A DNA stretch of 50,668 nucleotides from Bacillus sp. FJAT-27245 (GTDB taxonomy: Bacteria; Bacillota; Bacilli; Bacillales; Cytobacillaceae), in NCBI RefSeq assembly GCF_001273955.1, contig NZ_LIGI01000001.1:1859758-1910425 (forward strand), read 5' to 3'. Shown here piece by piece: positions 1-34,430 of this stretch. A program made the position numbers and the translations under genes. Every line of letters begins with the position of its first letter. Positions within the stretch are counted from its first letter, which is position 1. Below the pieces are notes generated by a model. It did not search any database. It worked only from the letters and a program-made list of their open reading frames with translations, and was not told where the DNA came from.

Positions 1-35
1 AAAATAAAGAAAACAAAGATTTCGGAGGTACATAT

Positions 36-380
36 ATGGAATTTTTTAAGTTTGGAAAAGAGATAGCTCAAGAAATTGGTAATTATAACTCTGTATCTGC
101 TTTCTATTCAAAGTTAATGAAAACAGAAACACCTACTAATATAGGTTTTATTAACATAGAGCAAGGCGGAGTTGTTGGATACCATAAAGCACCCGTACCC
201 CAGCTTTTCTTAGTGGTAGAAGGCGAGGGATGGGTTGAAGGAGAAGACAAAAAAAGAATAACGGTAAAAAGTGGTCAAGGAGTATTTTGGTATAAAGGTG
301 AAGGACATATTAGCGGAAGTGAAAAGGGATTAACTGCGTTAGTTCTTCAATCTGAGGAATTGGAAAACCCATTAAAATAG
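36..380 (+). CDS. small cupin-domain protein
   Basis: The product is a 114-residue single-domain protein. The ATG at 36 follows a good Shine-Dalgarno (GGAGG near 25). The central part, from residue 50 to 105, has the alternating glycine and short beta-strand pattern of a cupin barrel: a G-Y-H-K segment near residue 49, a V-E-G-E-G-W turn near 62-67 and a G-Q-G-V-F-W strand near 80-85. The substrate is unknown. Stand-alone cupins of this size are often small-molecule or sugar binding proteins or isomerase-like enzymes, but no complete metal-binding motif is obvious. The gene stands alone and is followed directly by a dispersed palindromic repeat. It is the first of a series of single small + strand genes that are each followed by such a repeat. 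The function is not assigned. Confidence 0.7.
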   Translation: MEFFKFGKEIAQEIGNYNSVSAFYSKLMKTETPTNIGFINIEQGGVVGYHKAPVPQLFLVVEGEGWVEGEDKKRITVKSGQGVFWYKGEGHISGSEKGLTALVLQSEELENPLK

Positions 381-408
381 AGATTAACAAGAAGGTTTTA
401 TTATCCAT

Positions 409-504
409 CTTGTTGAACTAACGGGTGCGATGATCAAGGAAGGATTACCGCCCTTTTTTGTTGAAGTTCTTATTGAACAAACGGTGCAGTTTAGTTAAAG
501 AAGG
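409..504. repeat. dispersed palindromic repeat, copy 1 (units A+B)
   Basis: Two tandem units lie here. Unit A (409-443) begins CTTGTTGAACTAACGGGTGC and closes with CAAGGAAGG. A spacer reading ATTACCGCCC plus a T-run follows. Unit B (468-504) begins TTCTTATTGAACAAACGG and closes with AAAGAAGG. The unit ends are imperfect inverted repeats (CTTRTTGAAC versus GTTCAATAAG in the best copies). The same two-unit design recurs near 2983, 4611 and 5289, and single units occur near 964, 2654 and 5778. Confidence 0.85.
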
Positions 505-537
505 AATTACTCAGTTACTAATAAAGGAGTGTATCAT

Positions 538-918
538 TTGATAGTGCCTGTTCTAAAAGATATTGAAATATTAGATACTCAAACTTATCATAATGGCCTT
601 GGGTATAAGGCGACCGCTTATATTTCAGAAGAAAATGATCTGGGTGCTGATTGTTTTCATTTTCGAGTGATTACATTTAATGATCTAACACAAATCATAA
701 AGGATAAAAGAATATTCTACGGAAGGGCAACGATTTTTGTTGATGAACTTAACTTGGACTTGGTTAGGAAAGAAATTGAATTAATTCTTAAAGATTGTAT
801 ACGTACTACCTGGGAGGAAGTTGCTGGAGCTATTAATCGTCATTTGAGTTGGGAATATGATAATATTCAGTACGAAACTCTTGATGAAACCTTGAAAAGG
901 CTAAATTTAAATGAATAA
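538..918 (+). CDS. Imm8-like immunity protein
   Basis: The protein has 126 residues from the TTG at 538, which sits eight bases behind the AAGGAG at 524-529. An in-frame GTG at 529 overlaps that Shine-Dalgarno and is an unlikely start. The protein is acidic and small, with the order seen in Imm8-type immunity proteins of polymorphic toxin systems: a D-C-F-H-F-R-V strand near residue 43, a Y-G-R-A-T-I-F-V-D segment near 63, and a helix with W-E-E-V-A near 95 followed by a W-E-Y motif. Immunity proteins bind and neutralise a matching toxin C-terminal domain in the cytosol. No toxin gene is adjacent, so it looks like an orphan immunity gene. Repeats lie on both sides. The family call rests on pattern memory and is moderate. 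Confidence 0.55.
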   Translation: MIVPVLKDIEILDTQTYHNGLGYKATAYISEENDLGADCFHFRVITFNDLTQIIKDKRIFYGRATIFVDELNLDLVRKEIELILKDCIRTTWEEVAGAINRHLSWEYDNIQYETLDETLKRLNLNE

Positions 919-963
919 TTTCTGGGAGTTTAGCGTTCCTTCCCTTCACATATGGATGGCAAT

Positions 964-1000
964 CCTTATTAAGCAAACGGGGCAGTATTGTTCAATAAGG
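964..1000. repeat. dispersed palindromic repeat, copy 2 (unit B)
   Basis: A single 37-base unit that begins CCTTATTAAGCAAACGGGGC and closes TTCAATAAGG. Its ends pair as an imperfect inverted repeat. It lies between the Imm8-like gene and the next gene. Confidence 0.8.
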
Positions 1001-1035
1001 TTAAATTTAAACCTTAACCAATTGGAGGGAATGTA

Positions 1036-1575
1036 TTGCTAAAGGTTAAATACGAGATATTTGAAGATTATAAGGAAGAACTCAAAGGGATAGAACTGTC
1101 CAAATTTGATGAAGAATATCATCAGATTTACGGTCTTTTTACTATAACTATTGGTGAACAAGACTTTATTCCCTATCCTTCAGGCGATATTCCATTGTCT
1201 GCAAAAAAGTCCTATTCTGAACTACTTCTTTCTCATTTTGAATTATTAAATGAAGTGGTTAAGTTTTTGTCAGAATATGATTATGTTGCTTTGAAATATA
1301 TTGAAGACAGTTGGAGTTGGTTAGAGTTTGTTAAGATGGAAGGCGATTTAGTCAAAATAAGTGAGCTGGAATATGAAATAGACTCACTGAAGAGCCTTGT
1401 AAGTACAGATAGTACCTTACTAAAAGGAGCTAAGTTCGGCTCTATAAAAGAAGTTTCAGTTTCAAAAGAGGAATTAGTTAAAGAGATAAAACAAACAACC
1501 AAATTGTTTACTGAAGAAATAAAATGCATTAATCCAATGTTACTTAAATCAAAGTGTTTTAGTAATGTGTTATAA
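1036..1575 (+). CDS. hypothetical protein
   Basis: The protein has 179 residues. TTG at 1036 is the start, six bases behind GGAGGG; an ATG at 1031 runs straight into a stop in its own frame. The protein is soluble and acidic, with no signal peptide or membrane segment. It has an aromatic-rich centre (S-W-S-W-L-E-F near residue 97) and a long C-terminal helix rich in lysine and glutamate. I do not recognise the family. Size, charge and its place after an Imm8-like gene in an accessory array would fit another immunity-type protein, but that is only context. About 140 bases of weakly structured sequence separate it from the next hairpin. Confidence 0.55.
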   Translation: MLKVKYEIFEDYKEELKGIELSKFDEEYHQIYGLFTITIGEQDFIPYPSGDIPLSAKKSYSELLLSHFELLNEVVKFLSEYDYVALKYIEDSWSWLEFVKMEGDLVKISELEYEIDSLKSLVSTDSTLLKGAKFGSIKEVSVSKEELVKEIKQTTKLFTEEIKCINPMLLKSKCFSNVL

Positions 1576-1721
1576 ATTCCAGCTCGATATTTTGATAACG
1601 GGCGAGAGAGTATGTTACTACCTGGACGGAACTTCATATACGAACTAAAGGGACAACATTCCTGTAATAAAGCTAACTTTGTGAATAAATGTACTTAAAC
1701 ATACTGGTGCGAGAGAACAAA

Positions 1722-1742
1722 AGCAACGCCGAGAGCGTTGCT
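1722..1742 (-). terminator. rho-independent terminator of the recombinase gene
   Basis: A perfect 8-bp stem (AGCAACGC / GCGTTGCT) closes a 5-base loop. Read on the minus strand it is followed by TTTTG, so it ends the recombinase gene that stops at 1750. The + strand side has only a weak T-tail, so it may also act poorly in that direction. Confidence 0.75.
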
Positions 1743-1749
1743 TCTATGC

Positions 1750-2589
1750 TTAGAAATATTTTTGGTAAAATTCCTGCCTTAGCCTTCCGCTCAGCTGAGC
1801 GTAAATTCGTGTGGTTTCACTCTTCTCGTGTCCCAAAAGACTTTGTATGACTTCAACGGGGGCTCCGTTATTCAACAAATGGGTTGCATAGCTGTGTCTG
1901 AGTTGATGAGGATAAATTTCCTTATTTATGGCCGCACGAGCTGAGATTCGTTTGATGACATATCTCATTTGGGCAATACTCATCCTATGTGGCAGCCGCT
2001 CAGTCACAAATATGGCAGGATCCGTATCCTGGCGACCTTCAATGTACCGTTTAAGCCAGATTTCGGCTCGTATATTAAAATAAACCTCACGTTCCTTGTC
2101 TCCTTTTCCCCTGACAATTGCAGAACGATTGGACCAATTAATGCAATTACGTTCAAGCGAAACAATTTCCCCGATCCTACATCCTGTTGAGAACATAAAT
2201 TCAAACAAGGCTTTTTCCATCGGGCTAACACACGCTTCACGCAGAAGTTCGATTTCTCTTTCGGTCAGGAACTTCGGGATGCGTTTTCCGACCTTGGGTT
2301 CCTTTATCTTAGCTGCGGGGTTATGAGGTATATGGCCTTCTTCGTGGCACCAGCGAAACAATGATTTCATAAACCGTATCCTGTGTGCCATACTGGATGG
2401 CTTTAAGGCCGCCGCTGATTGATTAAGGTATTCCTTTAAATTTTCTGTGCTAATGGTGCATATTTCTGCATCCTTGAAATACAGAGCAAGCAACCTTGCC
2501 TGAATGCCATAGGCTTTGATTGTATAAGGGGAAAAGCCCTCGATCCGTTTGTCGGCTGCGTATGTTTCCCACATCTTTGATATTAACAA
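1750..2589 (-). CDS. tyrosine recombinase / integrase (XerC/D-like)
   Basis: The protein has 279 residues from a TTG at 2589 behind AGGAGG. It cuts and rejoins DNA at specific sites through a covalent 3'-phosphotyrosine. All catalytic positions are visible: R138 in T-G-C-R-I-G-E, K162 in the G-K-G-D-K turn, H228 and R231 in H-Q-L-R-H, H254 in L-L-G-H, and the nucleophile Y263. The N-terminal hundred residues form the SAM-like core-binding domain. The length is close to XerC/XerD and to integron integrases. I see no extra insertion between H228 and the earlier box that would mark it as a true integron IntI. It is the only minus strand gene in a row of + strand single genes separated by palindromic repeats, which makes it a candidate for moving those genes. 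It could equally be a remnant of an unrelated mobile element. Confidence 0.9.
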   Translation of the reverse strand: MLISKMWETYAADKRIEGFSPYTIKAYGIQARLLALYFKDAEICTISTENLKEYLNQSAAALKPSSMAHRIRFMKSLFRWCHEEGHIPHNPAAKIKEPKVGKRIPKFLTEREIELLREACVSPMEKALFEFMFSTGCRIGEIVSLERNCINWSNRSAIVRGKGDKEREVYFNIRAEIWLKRYIEGRQDTDPAIFVTERLPHRMSIAQMRYVIKRISARAAINKEIYPHQLRHSYATHLLNNGAPVEVIQSLLGHEKSETTRIYAQLSGRLRQEFYQKYF

Positions 2590-2653
2590 CCTAATTCCTC
2601 CTATTTATCTTCTCTTTTAAAAGGAATTATTGCCTGGTTTATCGAAATATAGA

Positions 2654-2688
2654 CTTATTGCACTAAAGGGGCAGGTATGTTCAATAAG
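2654..2688. repeat. dispersed palindromic repeat, copy 3 (unit B)
   Basis: The unit begins CTTATTGCACTAAAGGGGC and closes GTTCAATAAG. The arms CTTATTG...CAATAAG form an inverted repeat. It lies between the recombinase gene and a small membrane protein gene. Confidence 0.75.
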
Positions 2689-2734
2689 AAGAATTAGAAT
2701 ATTATGGTTTATGTATTTTAGGAGGCGATTTGTT

Positions 2735-2935
2735 TTGAGAAAAATAGGTGTTCTTTTAGTTGGATTATCCTTATTAACTTTATCTGTAATTATGGTTCTA
2801 TCGGAAGTTACTAAAGCTATATATCATACCGCACAAAGTTATGGTTACGACTCTATTTCTAACTTTGTCTATGTACTAATAGCTATTGTATTTTTAATAG
2901 GTTTAATATCAATTTTCATCAAGAAACAGGAGTGA
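2735..2935 (+). CDS. small two-helix membrane protein
   Basis: The protein has 66 residues from TTG at 2735, about nine bases behind AGGAGG at 2720-2725. The reading frame is open further upstream to about 2630, but that part lies over a repeat copy and has no Shine-Dalgarno. Two hydrophobic segments are visible, residues 4-24 and 46-62, with a short polar loop and a basic C-terminus. There is no recognised family. It is probably an integral membrane protein of unknown role. A repeat follows. Confidence 0.55.
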   Translation: MRKIGVLLVGLSLLTLSVIMVLSEVTKAIYHTAQSYGYDSISNFVYVLIAIVFLIGLISIFIKKQE

Positions 2936-2982
2936 CTTATTCAATAAACACCGAGCGAATGCCGTACAAGGGTTTCACCTTT

Positions 2983-3077
2983 CCTTGTTGAAGTAACGGG
3001 TGCGTTGATCCAGCAGGATTAACCGCCTTTTTTGTTGAATTCCTTATTGAAGAAACGGGGCAGAATAGTTGAATTAA
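2983..3077. repeat. dispersed palindromic repeat, copy 4 (units A+B)
   Basis: Unit A (2983-3017) begins CCTTGTTGAAGTAACGGGTG and ends CAGCAGG. The spacer contains TTAACCGCC and a T-run. Unit B (from 3042) begins CCTTATTGAAGAAACGGGGC and ends near GTTGAATTA. A partial arm (GACTTATTCAATAAAC) lies at 2932-2947 just after the upstream stop codon. Confidence 0.85.
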
Positions 3078-3145
3078 TTATGAAAACAAAAATTTAAAAA
3101 TGTTGAAATGGTTATATGTGGAAAATTATGAAGAGGTGATGTTTT

Positions 3146-4573
3146 TTGAATAAGCTCGACAGAGAAAATATAGGATGGTGGTATTTGCCATCGAATCCAA
3201 CCGAAAGGTTAACAGGAACTTTAACGATAGATGATGATAATGTTTGTAAATTAAAGATGGCTCATAATTTTGGGGGCTTATCAGGAATAGGAGTTAATGA
3301 GCTACCAATAATCCATGGTGTTTTGTCAAATGGAAAGGAAGTTACACTTGTAAACTCAATAAAAACAAACGAACGGTGGGGATTCCCAGGCTTTCCTGTA
3401 TCCGTTTGGTCAAGTAGCCTAGCCGTTATTGGTGGACTATATAATGAGGATAAAGATATAGCACTATCAGAAATAAAAGCTACGTATGAATCTTTAAATT
3501 TATGGTTAAATAAAAGGCCCTTTGAGATTAATGCCAGTCCCGCTTCATATGAGGTATTTATGCATTACAAGATGCCTGATGTGATTAAAGTTGAAAACAG
3601 CAACTTTAATATTGAATTCACCTATAAGGTGAACAGTTCGGGTGACCTCTATAGTAAATTTGAAGTTATCCAAACAGAATTCGTGAGGTTTATATTTAAA
3701 GAAAAAACGCATTATAAGGAAGGTATTAACGTAGTGGATGATTTTTCTAACTTTTTAACCCTGTGTATAGGGAAAAACGTTAATTGTGGAAACTTTTTTG
3801 CTAAAGATATTCAGGGCAAAGACATCATCCTATTATTGAAATCACAAAAGGATAATTCAGAAACAGTAAAAGACCATGAAATTATTATTAAATTCTCTTT
3901 CATTGAAGATTCATTTGAAACTTGTATACAAACATGGAGTGCAAAAAAAGAATTGTTAGAACCAATTATTCATTACTTTGTTGAAGCACATGAAAAAGGC
4001 TTTCATGTACCAATGTCATATCTTAAAGTAGTACAAGCATTAGAAGCCTTTTCGCGAAGAATGAGAAACAATAAGATGTGGTCTGAGGAAGAATTTGAAG
4101 AAATGATTGAAAGAATTACTTCCCAATTGCAGGATGAGGATGATAGAAAACTTATCTCTGGAATAATTTCAAACGAACCTAGATTAAGACAGCGATTGAA
4201 CGAAATTCTTTTAGAAGTTAACGATATTTTTGAAATTTCATCCAAAAATAGAAAATCTTATATAAATAAAATGGTGAATACTCGAAATTATTATACCCAT
4301 TTCGATGAAAGTTTAAAAGACAAAATCTTTAAAGTGGAAACGATGTATTTCATCACAAAGTATTTGAAACTTGTATTACGAGTGCTTTTATTAAGGGAGT
4401 TAGGAATAAATAATGACCTTATTAAACAGCGAATGAGTGATAATCAAGAACTAATTAGTGTTAAAGAAGGATTGGGGCTTATCCCACCTGTTGAACTTTT
4501 CAGAATAGAGGTAAAAAAAAGTACGGGAGATAATTCAAATGAAAATCATCAAGATTCAGAAGAAACTCTTTAA
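3146..4573 (+). CDS. ApeA-like HEPN-domain defence protein
   Basis: The protein has 475 residues from TTG at 3146 behind AAGAGGTG. The N-terminal part (about 1-270) is beta-rich and matches the style of the ApeA N-terminal domain, with W-W-Y-L-P near residue 7 and a G-L-S-G-I-G turn. The C-terminal part (about 285-430) is helical and contains the HEPN ribonuclease signature R-x4-H, read here as R-N-Y-Y-T-H with R380 and H385. ApeA proteins are single-gene anti-phage systems thought to act by RNA cleavage that halts the infected cell. The gene stands alone between two repeat copies. It has no membrane segments. The HEPN motif is directly visible; the ApeA label is from memory of the family architecture. 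Confidence 0.75.
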   Translation: MNKLDRENIGWWYLPSNPTERLTGTLTIDDDNVCKLKMAHNFGGLSGIGVNELPIIHGVLSNGKEVTLVNSIKTNERWGFPGFPVSVWSSSLAVIGGLYNEDKDIALSEIKATYESLNLWLNKRPFEINASPASYEVFMHYKMPDVIKVENSNFNIEFTYKVNSSGDLYSKFEVIQTEFVRFIFKEKTHYKEGINVVDDFSNFLTLCIGKNVNCGNFFAKDIQGKDIILLLKSQKDNSETVKDHEIIIKFSFIEDSFETCIQTWSAKKELLEPIIHYFVEAHEKGFHVPMSYLKVVQALEAFSRRMRNNKMWSEEEFEEMIERITSQLQDEDDRKLISGIISNEPRLRQRLNEILLEVNDIFEISSKNRKSYINKMVNTRNYYTHFDESLKDKIFKVETMYFITKYLKLVLRVLLLRELGINNDLIKQRMSDNQELISVKEGLGLIPPVELFRIEVKKSTGDNSNENHQDSEETL

Positions 4574-4610
4574 CCGTTAATTCATCGGTTGTGAGGAGAC
4601 GGTGGATAGG

Positions 4611-4700
4611 GCAAAACTAACGGGTGCGTTGTTCAGGAAGGATTAACCGCCATTTGTTGAAATCCTTATTAAGCAAACGGGGCAGTAATGTTTAATAAGG
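4611..4700. repeat. dispersed palindromic repeat, copy 5 (units A+B)
   Basis: Unit A carries ACTAACGGGTGCGTTGTTC. Then TTAACCGCC and a short spacer follow. Unit B (4663-4700) begins TCCTTATTAAGCAAACGGGG and ends TTTAATAAGG. It lies between the ApeA-like gene and the P-loop kinase gene. Confidence 0.85.
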
Positions 4701-4761
4701 AAAAACAGATTTTATATTAAAGTATTACCAGTAAGAAATAAGATAATGAATAGGGGGATTT

Positions 4762-5259
4762 ATGGAATCGAAGTTAATTATCTTACGAGGCAATTCAGGG
4801 AGTGGAAAAACGACGACTGCAAAAAACCTTCAAAATTATTTAGGTCACGGAACGCTCTTGGTTTCTCAGGATGTCGTACGCCGTGAAATGCTGAAGGTTC
4901 ACGATAGAGACGGAAACCTTTCAATTGACTTAATTCGCCAAATTACAGAATACGGTAAAGGGAAATGTGAATTTGTTATTGTCGAGGGAATTTTATATAA
5001 GTGTCGTTATGGGGAAATGCTAAATAACTTAATCCAGTTCTATAACCAAAGGGCATATATTTATTATTTTGACTTATCCTTTGAGGAAACAGTCATTCGT
5101 CACAACTCAAGTCCGAAAAAGGAGGATTTCGGGGAAGATTCTTTACGTGCCTGGTGGAACCCAAACGATTATCTTGGCGTGAATGGAGAAACAATATTGA
5201 CTAATGATATGTCACAGAATAAAGTATTGGAACTGATTTTAAATCAACTGCAAAAGTAA
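4762..5259 (+). CDS. P-loop kinase-like ATPase (zeta toxin / AAA_33 type)
   Basis: The protein has 165 residues with ATG at 4762 behind AGGGGG. A Walker A loop G-N-S-G-S-G-K-T stands at residues 10-17, right after the first beta strand. An S-Q-D-V-V-R-R segment near residue 36 resembles the substrate and lid part of small nucleoside or zeta-type kinases, and V-I-V-E-G near residue 74 is the Walker B-like strand. A W-W-N-P segment near residue 130 is a feature shared by many uncharacterised kinases in Bacillus. It probably phosphorylates a small molecule; the substrate is unknown. A partner antitoxin is not visible, so a toxin role is not supported. Confidence 0.7.
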   Translation: MESKLIILRGNSGSGKTTTAKNLQNYLGHGTLLVSQDVVRREMLKVHDRDGNLSIDLIRQITEYGKGKCEFVIVEGILYKCRYGEMLNNLIQFYNQRAYIYYFDLSFEETVIRHNSSPKKEDFGEDSLRAWWNPNDYLGVNGETILTNDMSQNKVLELILNQLQK

Positions 5260-5288
5260 TTACTCAAATTTTTTAAAATACTAATATT

Positions 5289-5372
5289 CTTGTTCAACAA
5301 ACGGGTGTGATGATCTAGTAAGGATTACCGCCCTTTTTTTGAATTTCTTATTGAACAAAACCAGCTAATAGT
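5289..5372. repeat. dispersed palindromic repeat, copy 6 (unit A plus degraded unit B)
   Basis: Unit A (5289-5323) begins CTTGTTCAACAAACGGGTG and ends CTAGTAAGG. The spacer is ATTACCGCCC plus a T-run. The following unit B starts TTCTTATTGAACAAAAC but loses the GGGGCAG core. Confidence 0.75.
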
Positions 5373-5457
5373 TTGTCTACAACAAGGATTTCAATATCCA
5401 ATGGAAATTCTGTGGTAAAAAACAGTTGAGGAAGAAAAATCAAAAGAGGTGGAGAAA

Positions 5458-5787
5458 ATGTATTGGGAGACTCTTCCTAGTTGGGTCTGGGTAATTTATT
5501 ATTTATTTTTATTTCTAACATTAGGAACTGGAATTTTGAATGTTATTCGAAAAAGAATGTTAGGTCTGTCGATTATTGTAATTGTTGTAGCCATTACTGT
5601 TCCTATTATTAGCATGTTAAACAGTGTTGGAAGAGCGGAGGGTATGAATGAATTTGAACACTTAGTTGCTCAGTTACAACATGGTGCAATTTGGTCTATT
5701 TATTCAATAATAGGTTTTCTATACCTGGTTGTATTTTGGACATTATTTTTTCTTAAAAATAAGATAAATGCCGAAGTTTCTTATTGA
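5458..5787 (+). CDS. small membrane protein
   Basis: The protein has 109 residues from ATG at 5458, six bases or so behind AGAGGTGG. A GTG at 5449 overlaps the Shine-Dalgarno and is unlikely. Three hydrophobic segments are visible, around residues 9-27, 35-55 and 78-98. There is no recognised family. The stop codon TGA lies inside the next repeat copy (TTCTTATTGAGC), so the repeat supplies the end of the gene. The function is unknown. Confidence 0.6.
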   Translation: MYWETLPSWVWVIYYLFLFLTLGTGILNVIRKRMLGLSIIVIVVAITVPIISMLNSVGRAEGMNEFEHLVAQLQHGAIWSIYSIIGFLYLVVFWTLFFLKNKINAEVSY

Positions 5788-5812
5788 GCTAACGGGTGCT
5801 TATCTTAAACAA
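5778..5812. repeat. dispersed palindromic repeat, copy 7 (partial)
   Basis: A single degenerate unit that begins TTCTTATTGAGCTAACGGGT. It overlaps the last codons and stop of the upstream membrane protein gene and marks the right end of the repeat-bearing region. Confidence 0.65.
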
Positions 5813-5831
5813 TGTGCTAATATAAAAGCTT

Positions 5832-26956: not shown

Positions 26957-27111
26957 TAAAAAGCCTCTTTCATTCAGAAAGAGGCATCGTAAACAAATTG
27001 TTTATCGACTTATCTTCCAGAATGAATCCATTCTGCAGGAAGTGGCACCGTACCCAGAATTGGGGGTTGCCGGACGTCATAGGGCCTGATCCCTCGGTCG
27101 CTCTTGATAAG
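26957..27111 (-). ncRNA. SAM-I (S-box) riboswitch
   Basis: Minus strand reading starts CTTATCAAGAG at 27111 and passes the GAGGGA...GGCCC core, GACGTCCGGCAACC and GGTGCCA, which are all S-box hallmarks. The expression platform ends in a terminator (GCCTCTTT 26963-26970 with AAAGAGGC 26978-26985) followed by five T residues. High SAM would favour the terminator and switch off metNPQ. Confidence 0.95.
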
Positions 27112-27138
27112 TGTTTATGTATGAAATTAACAATACCT

Positions 27139-33651: not shown

Positions 33652-34430
33652 TGAAAAAAATGGCATTAACTGACATAGCGAATGAAATTTCCCGCCATCA
33701 AAAGAGTGCTGTCGAAATGGACAGAATCTCAACACGGTATCCAGATATTACAATTGATGATGCTTATAAAATTCAGGAAATGATTATTGAAAAGGAATTG
33801 CAGGATGGTGGCAATTTAGCTGGCTGGAAAATGGGGCTGACAAGCGTCGCAAAGCAACAATCAGTTGGCGTCACTCAACCCATTTTTGGGAGATTGCTTG
33901 AGTCTATGAGGATGCCCAAAGAAGAACTTTTTTTAGCAGGCTTAATTCATCCTAGAGTGGAGCCCGAATTTGCTTTTATCATAAACAAAAAACTTGAGGG
34001 AAATAACATCACCGAACAAGATGTCTATCAGGCTACAGAGGGCATAATTCTGGCAGTAGAGGTAATTGACAGCCGCTATAAGGATTTTTCTTTCAACCTA
34101 ATTGATGTGGTTGCCGATAATACTTCAAGTGCAAAATTTTTCACTTTGGAACAAATGTATCACCCTAACCAGTTTCAGTGGGAAAACATCAAGGTCCAAA
34201 TGAAATTGAACGGGAAAGTCGTTCAAGAAGGAAAAGGTTCGGACGTATTGGGGCATCCTGCACGTTCAGTGGTTGAATTGGTTAAAATGCTGCATTCCTA
34301 TGGGCATAGTATTGAACCCGGGATGATTGTACTAACCGGTGCTTTAACGGAAGCTATACATGTTTTTAGTGGTGATACCATTGAGGTTGAATTCGAGCTA
34401 TTAGGTAAAATTAATCTAACTGTAAGTTAA
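33651..34430 (+). CDS. 2-keto-4-pentenoate hydratase family protein
   Basis: The protein has 259 residues from the ATG at 33651, which overlaps the upstream stop; five more codons are open upstream from an ATG at 33636 without a better site. MhpD-type enzymes add water to 2-hydroxypentadienoate, or decarboxylate oxalocrotonate, in the meta-cleavage pathway. Visible motifs are G-W-K-M-G-L-T-S near residue 58, the metal-binding V-E-P-E-F-A-F near 98 and G-D-T-I-E-V near 246. Together with the dioxygenase it forms the core of a catechol-like degradation route; no dehydrogenase or aldolase for the remaining steps lies next to it. Confidence 0.85.
   Translation: MKKMALTDIANEISRHQKSAVEMDRISTRYPDITIDDAYKIQEMIIEKELQDGGNLAGWKMGLTSVAKQQSVGVTQPIFGRLLESMRMPKEELFLAGLIHPRVEPEFAFIINKKLEGNNITEQDVYQATEGIILAVEVIDSRYKDFSFNLIDVVADNTSSAKFFTLEQMYHPNQFQWENIKVQMKLNGKVVQEGKGSDVLGHPARSVVELVKMLHSYGHSIEPGMIVLTGALTEAIHVFSGDTIEVEFELLGKINLTVS

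Follow-up and report, generated by a model that had tools for sequence, protein, structure and literature searches.

The textbook route by which bacteria gather single genes is the integron, whose common promoter, Pc, drives promoterless cassettes; integrons are nearly absent from the Firmicutes. Their integrase, IntI, recognises the folded bottom strand of attC, according to the accessible part of the source (PMC8618304). The available text of the IntegronFinder 2.0 paper reports one complete integron in the Firmicutes, that of Limnochorda pilosa, together with integron cassette clusters that have no integrase, termed CALIN (PMC9024848). In the dif modules of Acinetobacter, as presented in the accessible portion of PMC13141974, the host XerC/XerD act on sites with a 6-bp spacer, neighbouring sites are inverse and two module types alternate; the same text describes these modules as unique to Acinetobacter plasmids. 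Here we analyze a row of genes, separated by short repeats and enclosing a tyrosine recombinase gene, in a 50,668-nucleotide (nt) stretch of the 4.6 Mb genome of Bacillus sp. FJAT-27245 (G000:C1:1859758-1910425; hereafter the window). Comparison with related loci indicates that it is probably a mobile gene-cassette array, in which a dedicated tyrosine recombinase would exchange cassettes at double-stranded core sites.

The window had previously been read from its letters alone, and this sequence-only reading described an integron-like row of single-gene units at 1..5815, separated by a palindromic repeat of two units, A and B. Sequence inspection, open reading frames (ORFs), a repeat search and Pfam place the repeats, the gene order and the opposite-strand recombinase at the positions described. 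The left limit had to be moved, because the array extends upstream past the window edge: the full array spans about 7.6 kb (about G000:C1:1857998-1865570) and begins 1.76 kb upstream, where three additional B sites and further genes belong to it, window positions 1-5815 being its right part. Units A and B both exist, but they are two separate arm-spacer-arm sites rather than halves of one palindrome; within the window, B occurs without A at 979 and A without B at 5794. The features of the array are as follows, with scores from the core-site weight matrix.

36..380, + strand: cassette gene, small cupin-like protein (114 aa); ORF, Pfam Cupin_2 E-value 6e-6
409..442, + strand: core site A, spacer GGGTGC at 423-428, score 37.1
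429..468, + strand: small A-to-B unit, terminator-like, with T run; from its sequence, the statistics in the text being those of the unit class, not of this copy
469..503, + strand: core site B, spacer GGTGCAG at 483-489, score 42.5
529..918, + strand: cassette gene, Imm8 immunity-protein family; Pfam PF15586 E-value 1.5e-14
965..999, + strand: core site B without A, spacer at 979-985, score 40.2
1036..1575, + strand: cassette gene, unknown protein (179 aa); ORF, no Pfam, NCBIfam or PADLOC match
1691..1724, + strand: degenerate A core site, 3' of the recombinase gene, spacer TGGTGC at 1705-1710, score 10.7, under the threshold of 14
1750..2589, - strand: tyrosine recombinase (279 aa), lying between A and B on the strand opposite to the cassettes; Pfam PF00589 E-value 1.7e-37
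2654..2688, + strand: core site B, some 65 nt upstream of the recombinase start, spacer at 2668-2674, score 38.8
2735..2935, + strand: cassette gene, small membrane-like protein (66 aa); from sequence, no Pfam, NCBIfam or PADLOC match
2984..3017, + strand: core site A, spacer at 2998-3003, score 32.9
3043..3077, + strand: core site B, spacer at 3057-3063, score 32.4
3146..4573, + strand: cassette gene, ApeA-like HEPN defence protein; Pfam ApeA_NTD1 E-value 1.4e-37, HEPN_Apea E-value 2.9e-32
4608..4641, + strand: core site A, GGGTGC at 4622-4627; repeat search and consensus scan
4665..4699, + strand: core site B, spacer at 4679-4685, score 34.2
4762..5259, + strand: cassette gene, P-loop kinase-like, PRK06762 family; NCBIfam NF005251 236 bits (cut-off 183), Pfam AAA_33
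5289..5322, + strand: core site A, spacer at 5303-5308, score 27.4
5347..5377, + strand: B left arm with unusual right half AACCAGCTAATAGTTTGTC, the right half also found in L064 and L066
5449..5787, + strand: cassette gene, membrane protein (112 aa); ORF, no Pfam, NCBIfam or PADLOC match
5780..5813, + strand: final A core site, marking the array's right end, spacer at 5794-5799, score 29.9

The matrix finds 10 sites scoring at least 14 in the window, nine of them in 409-5815, all on the + strand. The sole site beyond 5815, isolated at 34337 (score 16.6), is chance-like (chance level 0.25 per random first-order Markov window); the sequence-only reading had noted no convincing copy of the repeat in the remaining 44 kb. 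With at most one mismatch, AACGGGTGC has 20 matches in the whole window against 6.7 expected, and AAACGGGGCAG has 8 against 0.86; no shuffle reached either count. The A site at 4608..4641, whose right arm is shifted by one base, was missed by the matrix even at a score of 10, and the degenerate A at 1691..1724 lies where A sites adjoin other recombinase genes. The same AACCAGCTAATAGTTTGTC right half was seen at L064 6790 and L066 14453 (cassette-sense coordinates), with looser versions in L061 and L098, and its combination with a B left arm is perhaps a third spacer class. Elsewhere in the genome, a second small cluster of three B-like sites lies on the other strand at 3591926-3596141; the only recombinase match at an E-value of 1e-60 in this genome is the window copy.

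The sites were characterized across related loci. Scanning named genomes with the recombinase yielded 441 relatives; the analysis used the 80 best, in 78 loci (L023-L100), which come from Neobacillus, Mesobacillus, Psychrobacillus, Paenisporosarcina, Litchfieldia, Lysinibacillus and other Bacilli. An iterated repeat profile recovered 657 copies in 79 of 85 loci, and the position table resolved two units, each an inverted arm pair (TTGAACTAAC / GTTAGTTCAA) round a short G-rich spacer. The A consensus is TTnAACTAAC-GGGTGC-kTTAGTTnAAGAAG, with a 6-nt spacer; the B consensus is CTTATTGAACTAAC-GGGGCAG-GTTAGTTGAAGAAG, with a spacer of 6-7 nt (GGGGCAG or GGGCAG). When the weight matrix was applied to 84 loci (L028 being dropped as a copy of L018, the window reduced to its first 7 kb, and strand assigned by the higher score), 1187 of 1212 sites ran one way and 25 the other, at least 7 of these 25 sitting together in L069; shuffled sequence gave 1 site at the same threshold. 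Because the recombinase alone set the orientation of the loci found through it, this bias ties site direction to gene direction. Comparison among loci thus shows a common site anatomy, a common orientation and, between the sites, gene-sized spacing.

The steps from B to A have a median of 634 nt (n = 408), and those from A to B a median of 59 nt (n = 395), 72% being shorter than 130 nt. Gene units have a median length of 652 nt and mostly hold a single ORF on the site strand: the longest ORF was sense in 424, antisense in 67 and missing in 19 of 510 B-to-A or B-to-B units (200-2500 nt), and 382 of 491 gene-size units had exactly one ORF of at least 200 nt. The main sense ORF starts at a median of 88 nt past one site and stops a median of 46 nt short of the site that follows. 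Many of the small A-to-B units resemble terminators, with a hairpin and T run (-5 kcal/mol or better) in 37% of 281, compared with 3% of shuffles and 0.7% on the antisense strand, and these terminator-like units argue against read-through along the array. Promoters belonging to individual cassettes were considered and set aside: sigma-70-like scores at unit starts were on average no better than antisense or shuffled, and the top class (score at least 11 in 2.6% of 420 units, versus 0.5% antisense and 0.2% at the 3' end) holds too few cases to build on. As a separate observation, a conserved TTGTGAA..ACTTAA element stands just left of 132 of 1187 sites (117 of 586 A, 15 of 601 B) and ends some cassettes.

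The recombinase of the window has a complete catalytic set (R138, K162, H228, R231, H254 and Y263); among 81 aligned recombinases, R138, K162, H254 and Y263 are invariant, and H228 and R231 are present in 80. It is under purifying selection, the median dN/dS over 262 pairs drawn from the same arrays being 0.064. The nearest solved structure is XerD (1a0p, E-value 7e-33), and the NCBIfam scores lie below the cut-offs for XerC (194 against 335), XerD (202 against 330) and archaeal XerA (202 against 220). The cut-offs of the integron integrase models were missed as well (TIGR02249, 90 bits against 265; PRK15417, 61 against 435), which bears out the earlier judgement that the enzyme does not look like IntI.

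The gene also has a regular place. Once six contig-edge genes and one opposite-direction gene were set aside, 49 of 74 scorable full-length genes lay in the order A-recombinase-B, 17 had one of the two sites, 4 had neither and 4 were arranged otherwise. The unit holding the recombinase was A-to-B in 56 of 70 cases, so the gene takes the place of a small A-to-B unit. Its direction is less constant. Around relatives of at least 75% identity, counting plasmid L101, the sites oppose the gene in 43 cases and follow its direction in 2. In the loci L146-L155, L102, L103 and L105 (61-65% identity), the gene was observed to run the same way as most sites, unlike in the window and the loci closer to it, and L146 has the order A, recombinase in sense, B. 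From this order and the site-direction counts, including those of the 61-67% relatives given below, the gene lies between A and B in both identity groups while its direction differs, and the idea that sites always run against the recombinase gene was discarded, being contradicted by the 61-67% relatives.

Units recur in new company. The sequence-only reading had proposed listing what lies between repeat copies and locating junctions within the repeat, and both checks favored exchange. An all-versus-all comparison of loci found 37 gene-unit families in two or more places among 688 gene-size units; of 46 member pairs, 29 differ in their neighbours on both sides, 14 differ on one side and have an edge on the other, and 3 have a common neighbour. 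Thus 43 of the 46 pairs, compared between species or arrays, have no shared examined neighbour, and single units recur beside unrelated ones. In Paenisporosarcina sp. HGH0030, two arrays on one scaffold have three units in common (two at 99% and one at 94% identity), in a different order. All of this evidence is comparative, from collections with one genome per species; the strain pair L048/L053 differs at an assembly gap (N) and was not used.

The junctions themselves coincide with the core spacer. In a set of 1172 sites, 60 pairs have just the right flank in common and 66 just the left, and in both groups of pairs identity steps at the 6-7 nt spacer, being near baseline on the unshared side and high from the spacer on the shared side. 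Both members belong to the same spacer class in 88% of right-sharing and 98% of left-sharing pairs, versus 51% of random pairs. The pattern persists when sites next to the recombinase are left out, with 33 pairs (14 groups) and 29 pairs (25 groups) remaining. Comparison of loci hence shows unit recurrence, identity steps at the spacer and a class preference, and such steps are expected if a tyrosine recombinase exchanges strands at a double-stranded core.

Sites and recombinase also tend to occur together. At an E-value of 1e-60 the recombinase has matches in 40 of 199 genomes of the order, and a sequence-only B model, which scored at most 34 candidates per genome, found at least one site in 131 of the 199 (37 of 40 with the recombinase, 94 of 159 without). 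At least 5 B sites occur in 22 of 40 genomes with the recombinase versus 23 of 159 without (p = 4e-7), and at least 10 in 16 of 40 versus 8 of 159 (p = 1e-7). Three recombinase genomes have no B-model match, among them G187, which nevertheless has 11 matrix sites. The B model outperformed the strict B pattern even so; the strict A pattern matched 5 of 61 genomes, two of them (G012, G030) chance-like. Eight plasmid records match the recombinase at the same E-value, six over at least 80% of its length. Within the stretch examined round the recombinase, all 11 sites on the 266 kb Sporosarcina psychrophila plasmid run against the gene, as do 29 of the 31 sites on a plasmid recorded under Arthrobacter citreus; two Peribacillus frigoritolerans plasmids with only a gene fragment have 9 each, all with the gene; and a P. 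simplex plasmid has 4 with the gene and 2 against.

We therefore favor, as probable, the mobile cassette array outlined at the start. A and B sites succeed each other in one orientation, mostly alternating; the stretch from B to A holds a gene unit, usually with one ORF, and that from A to B either a terminator-like unit of about 60 nt or the recombinase gene. The recombinase would bind the arms and exchange strands within the spacer, joining A to A and B to B. Recombination between two sites of one class would release a circle, made up of a gene and a terminator unit, that could enter another array at a site of that class, and arrays would in this way collect and shuffle single genes between chromosomes and plasmids. 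That this recombinase catalyzes the exchange we infer from a statistical link between enzyme and sites, and circles are the presumed intermediates. The proposal under which the embedded recombinase acts on the repeats as recombination sites of single-gene cassettes came through most of the tests suggested for it that could be run.

Several observations weigh against this reading. In right-sharing pairs, identity lies a little over baseline across the 5 nt that precede the spacer, so the crossover can be placed only to within a few bases, and the class preference is not absolute, 7 of the 60 right-sharing pairs joining A with B. Alternation is not strict either (142 A-A and 160 B-B steps), part of these steps probably being due to missed sites. 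The loci were gathered by recombinase similarity and the site model was trained on them, so the site counts are no unbiased census, and near-duplicate loci may repeat pairs. An independent check speaks for the reading: of 14 genome loci outside the site model, with recombinases of 61-83% identity, 13 have sites (114 in total), all in one direction in 11 of the 13. Gene direction is not universal: among relatives of 61-67% identity (ten of those fourteen genome loci and four plasmid loci; one locus at 74.7% has no site), 102 sites point the same way as the gene and 33 the opposite way, with 29 of these 33 on plasmid L104. Seven of the 40 recombinase genomes have only partial or interrupted copies, and the strict B pattern separates genomes weakly (12 of 40 versus 23 of 159; 35 of 199 in total). 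Finally, 8 of the 24 site-rich genomes have no recombinase match at 1e-60; one, G138, keeps a decayed copy, and the other seven have only matches of 24-36% identity. The expectation that arrays track the recombinase is therefore borne out as an enrichment and not as a strict rule, and the existence of site-rich genomes without a close recombinase implies that some arrays are relics or are served by another enzyme. An even spread through core intergenic regions, or abundance in genomes lacking the recombinase, had been named as evidence against the proposal; neither was found in strong form, sites being clustered, oriented and gene-spaced.

Among the alternatives, an integron variant fares best, yet we judge it unlikely: A and B would be the halves of one attC-like single-stranded hairpin, recombined on one strand by the recombinase. 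The single-gene cassettes in one orientation are indeed integron-like, and the arms are complementary (A left with B right, A right with B left), leaving the G-rich spacers unpaired. Covariation of these arm pairs was measured in 223 non-redundant full repeats. The mean Watson-Crick excess was 0.003 for the outer and 0.006 for the inner pairing, near the -0.002 and 0.001 of the shifted controls, and 0.001 within A and 0.013 within B. Two neighbouring inner pairs gave mutual information z-scores of 14.1 and 6.4, one with a Watson-Crick excess of 0.11, a signal that can also arise when these arms move jointly as parts of a single small unit. When eight bottom strands were folded, the z-scores ranged from -0.13 to -2.95, all negative; the whole outer stem folded in one of them (L018:8723-8817, z -2.95), but six folded no better than z -2.1 and they had no common shape. 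Moreover, A and B occur singly and each exchanges mostly with its own class, and the recombinase scores 90 against the integron integrase cut-off of 265. The hairpin reading is thus on the whole unsupported by covariation and folding, and the repeats are not classical attC sites, as had been suspected. Since covariation lies near the controls and the folds lack a common shape, double-stranded cores are preferred, and we infer that the sites act as double-stranded DNA.

It is less probable still that host XerC/XerD use the sites, as in dif modules, with the embedded recombinase a passenger. In its favor, the spacer length and arm-spacer-arm form are dif-like, and seven site-rich genomes have only distant tyrosine recombinase matches (24-36% identity). 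The recombinase, however, is held at a dN/dS of 0.064 and sits between A and B in most arrays scored, genomes that have it are enriched in sites, and the sites run one way, unlike the alternating pdif sites described in the accessible text of PMC13141974. The seven genomes, with 10-32 B sites each, are G039, G044, G089, G150, G196, G206 and G222; a looser search of 11 site-rich genomes without the recombinase turned up decayed fragments in two of them, G138 and G192, all other matches being at 24-36% identity.

General homologous recombination between the repeats, with no dedicated enzyme, is very improbable: the repeats offer some homology, and right-sharing pairs show a slight identity rise at the end of the left arm, but the arms are short and diverged, class is mostly kept, and junctions that step at the 6-7 nt spacer would instead be scattered anywhere in about 95 nt. 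An ordinary mobile repeat, similar to miniature inverted-repeat transposable elements or repetitive extragenic palindromes, with A-recombinase-B autonomous and A-B its short derivative inserted beside resident genes, is just as improbable, for although A-recombinase-B resembles a repeat carrying a gene in its loop, this leaves unexplained the 1187 of 1212 one-way sites with gene-sized units between them, the array-specific genes, the recurrence of units beside new neighbours and the spacer junctions.

The cassettes of the window include defence and immunity genes, as first read: the ApeA-like HEPN gene, which also matches PDC-S58 (E-value 1.7e-199) and Cas13-ApeA (E-value 3.4e-64) in PADLOC, and the Imm8 gene. 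The Cupin_2 match of the gene at 36..380 (26.3 bits) is slightly below its cut-off of 27.2. Outside the window, 145 cassette proteins were scanned from 325 eligible, one per unit family, and the commonest Pfam families were GNAT acetyltransferases, DUF3231, DinB and NUDIX. Only 3 of the 145 match PADLOC at 1e-5, so the window's ApeA gene is not typical of the arrays, and a reading of them as defence islands was rejected.

The array interval is flanked by the conserved genes ghl (left) and lytR (right). No core site lies between ghl and lytR in the stretches examined from seven congeners (both neighbours found in five, only lytR in G005 and G004); G002 has one weak site, score 15, outside the interval. 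Because the interval carries other genes and no core site in these congeners, it does not offer a clean empty site. The sole Rfam match in the window is an S-adenosylmethionine (SAM) riboswitch at 27007-27113, minus strand.

Relatives of the recombinase also occur in phages, at 35-66% identity in IMG/VR and at most 35% in an annotated phage collection. In at least 9 of 17 IMG/VR contigs with recombinases of 54-65% identity (L121, L123, L124, L128, L129, L131, L133, L134 and L135), a core site lies in frame inside an ORF (reading ..LTG..). The normalized similarity score before versus after the site is 0.70 versus 0.04 for L121/L124 and 0.69 versus 0.07 for L133/L134, as if C-terminal parts were exchanged at it; L134/L135 are alike on both sides (0.54, 0.88), and in L128 the gene lies in the tail module. 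With confidence a little better than even, we propose a broader picture: a Gram-positive gene-capture system independent of integrons, with two alternating classes of double-stranded core, terminators as exchangeable units of their own, and a recombinase whose gene occupies the position of one such unit and may face either way. This recombinase family would also serve phages, where an in-frame core site in a gene close to the recombinase marks the join of unrelated C-terminal parts to a related N-terminal part.

If this is correct, the Bacillales would own a large store of exchangeable genes, given recombinase matches in 40 of 199 genomes and copies on plasmids; cassette capture would have evolved more than once, with different site chemistry; an explanation would be at hand for many small, genome-specific genes, namely those for acetyltransferases, DinB, NUDIX and immunity proteins and some for defence; and Bacillus would gain a simple double-stranded cassette tool. 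No prior description was found in the literature searched, which left out bioRxiv and most subscription papers, and the gene-capture system is apparently undescribed so far.

Compared with known systems, the arrays resemble integrons, sedentary chromosomal ones included, in their rows of cassettes that mostly hold one gene, lie on the same strand, vary in function and each precede a recombination sequence. A tyrosine recombinase gene belongs to the locus in both, and single cassettes are shuffled as units, which is seen here when species or arrays are compared. The arrays that lack a close recombinase parallel the CALIN clusters without integrase, as these appear in the available text of PMC9024848. 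The enzyme here, however, is not IntI, the sites are two separate cores without clear hairpin covariation, and terminator-like units stand between the cassettes. Integrons have attI beside intI and one-sided addition of cassettes, whereas here a B site adjoins the recombinase start but sites flank the gene on both sides (54 of 59 cases with more than 3 kb on each side). With dif modules, as set out in the accessible portion of PMC13141974, the arrays have in common genes between short-spacer sites, the alternation of two types and an exchange centred on the site that needs like spacers. Adjacent sites are inverse there (C and D modules) and in one orientation here (1187 of 1212); the arrays here lie in Bacillales chromosomes and plasmids; and most have a dedicated recombinase, the arrays having been found through it, which is missing in some genomes. 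XerC/XerD, XerA and phage integrases belong to the same enzyme family, but the recombinase here falls below the Xer cut-offs and is linked to cassette arrays. The system fails defining features of integrons and of dif modules while keeping the working logic of both, and is best read as a kind of its own, integron-like in the way it works and distinct from the dif modules of Acinetobacter.

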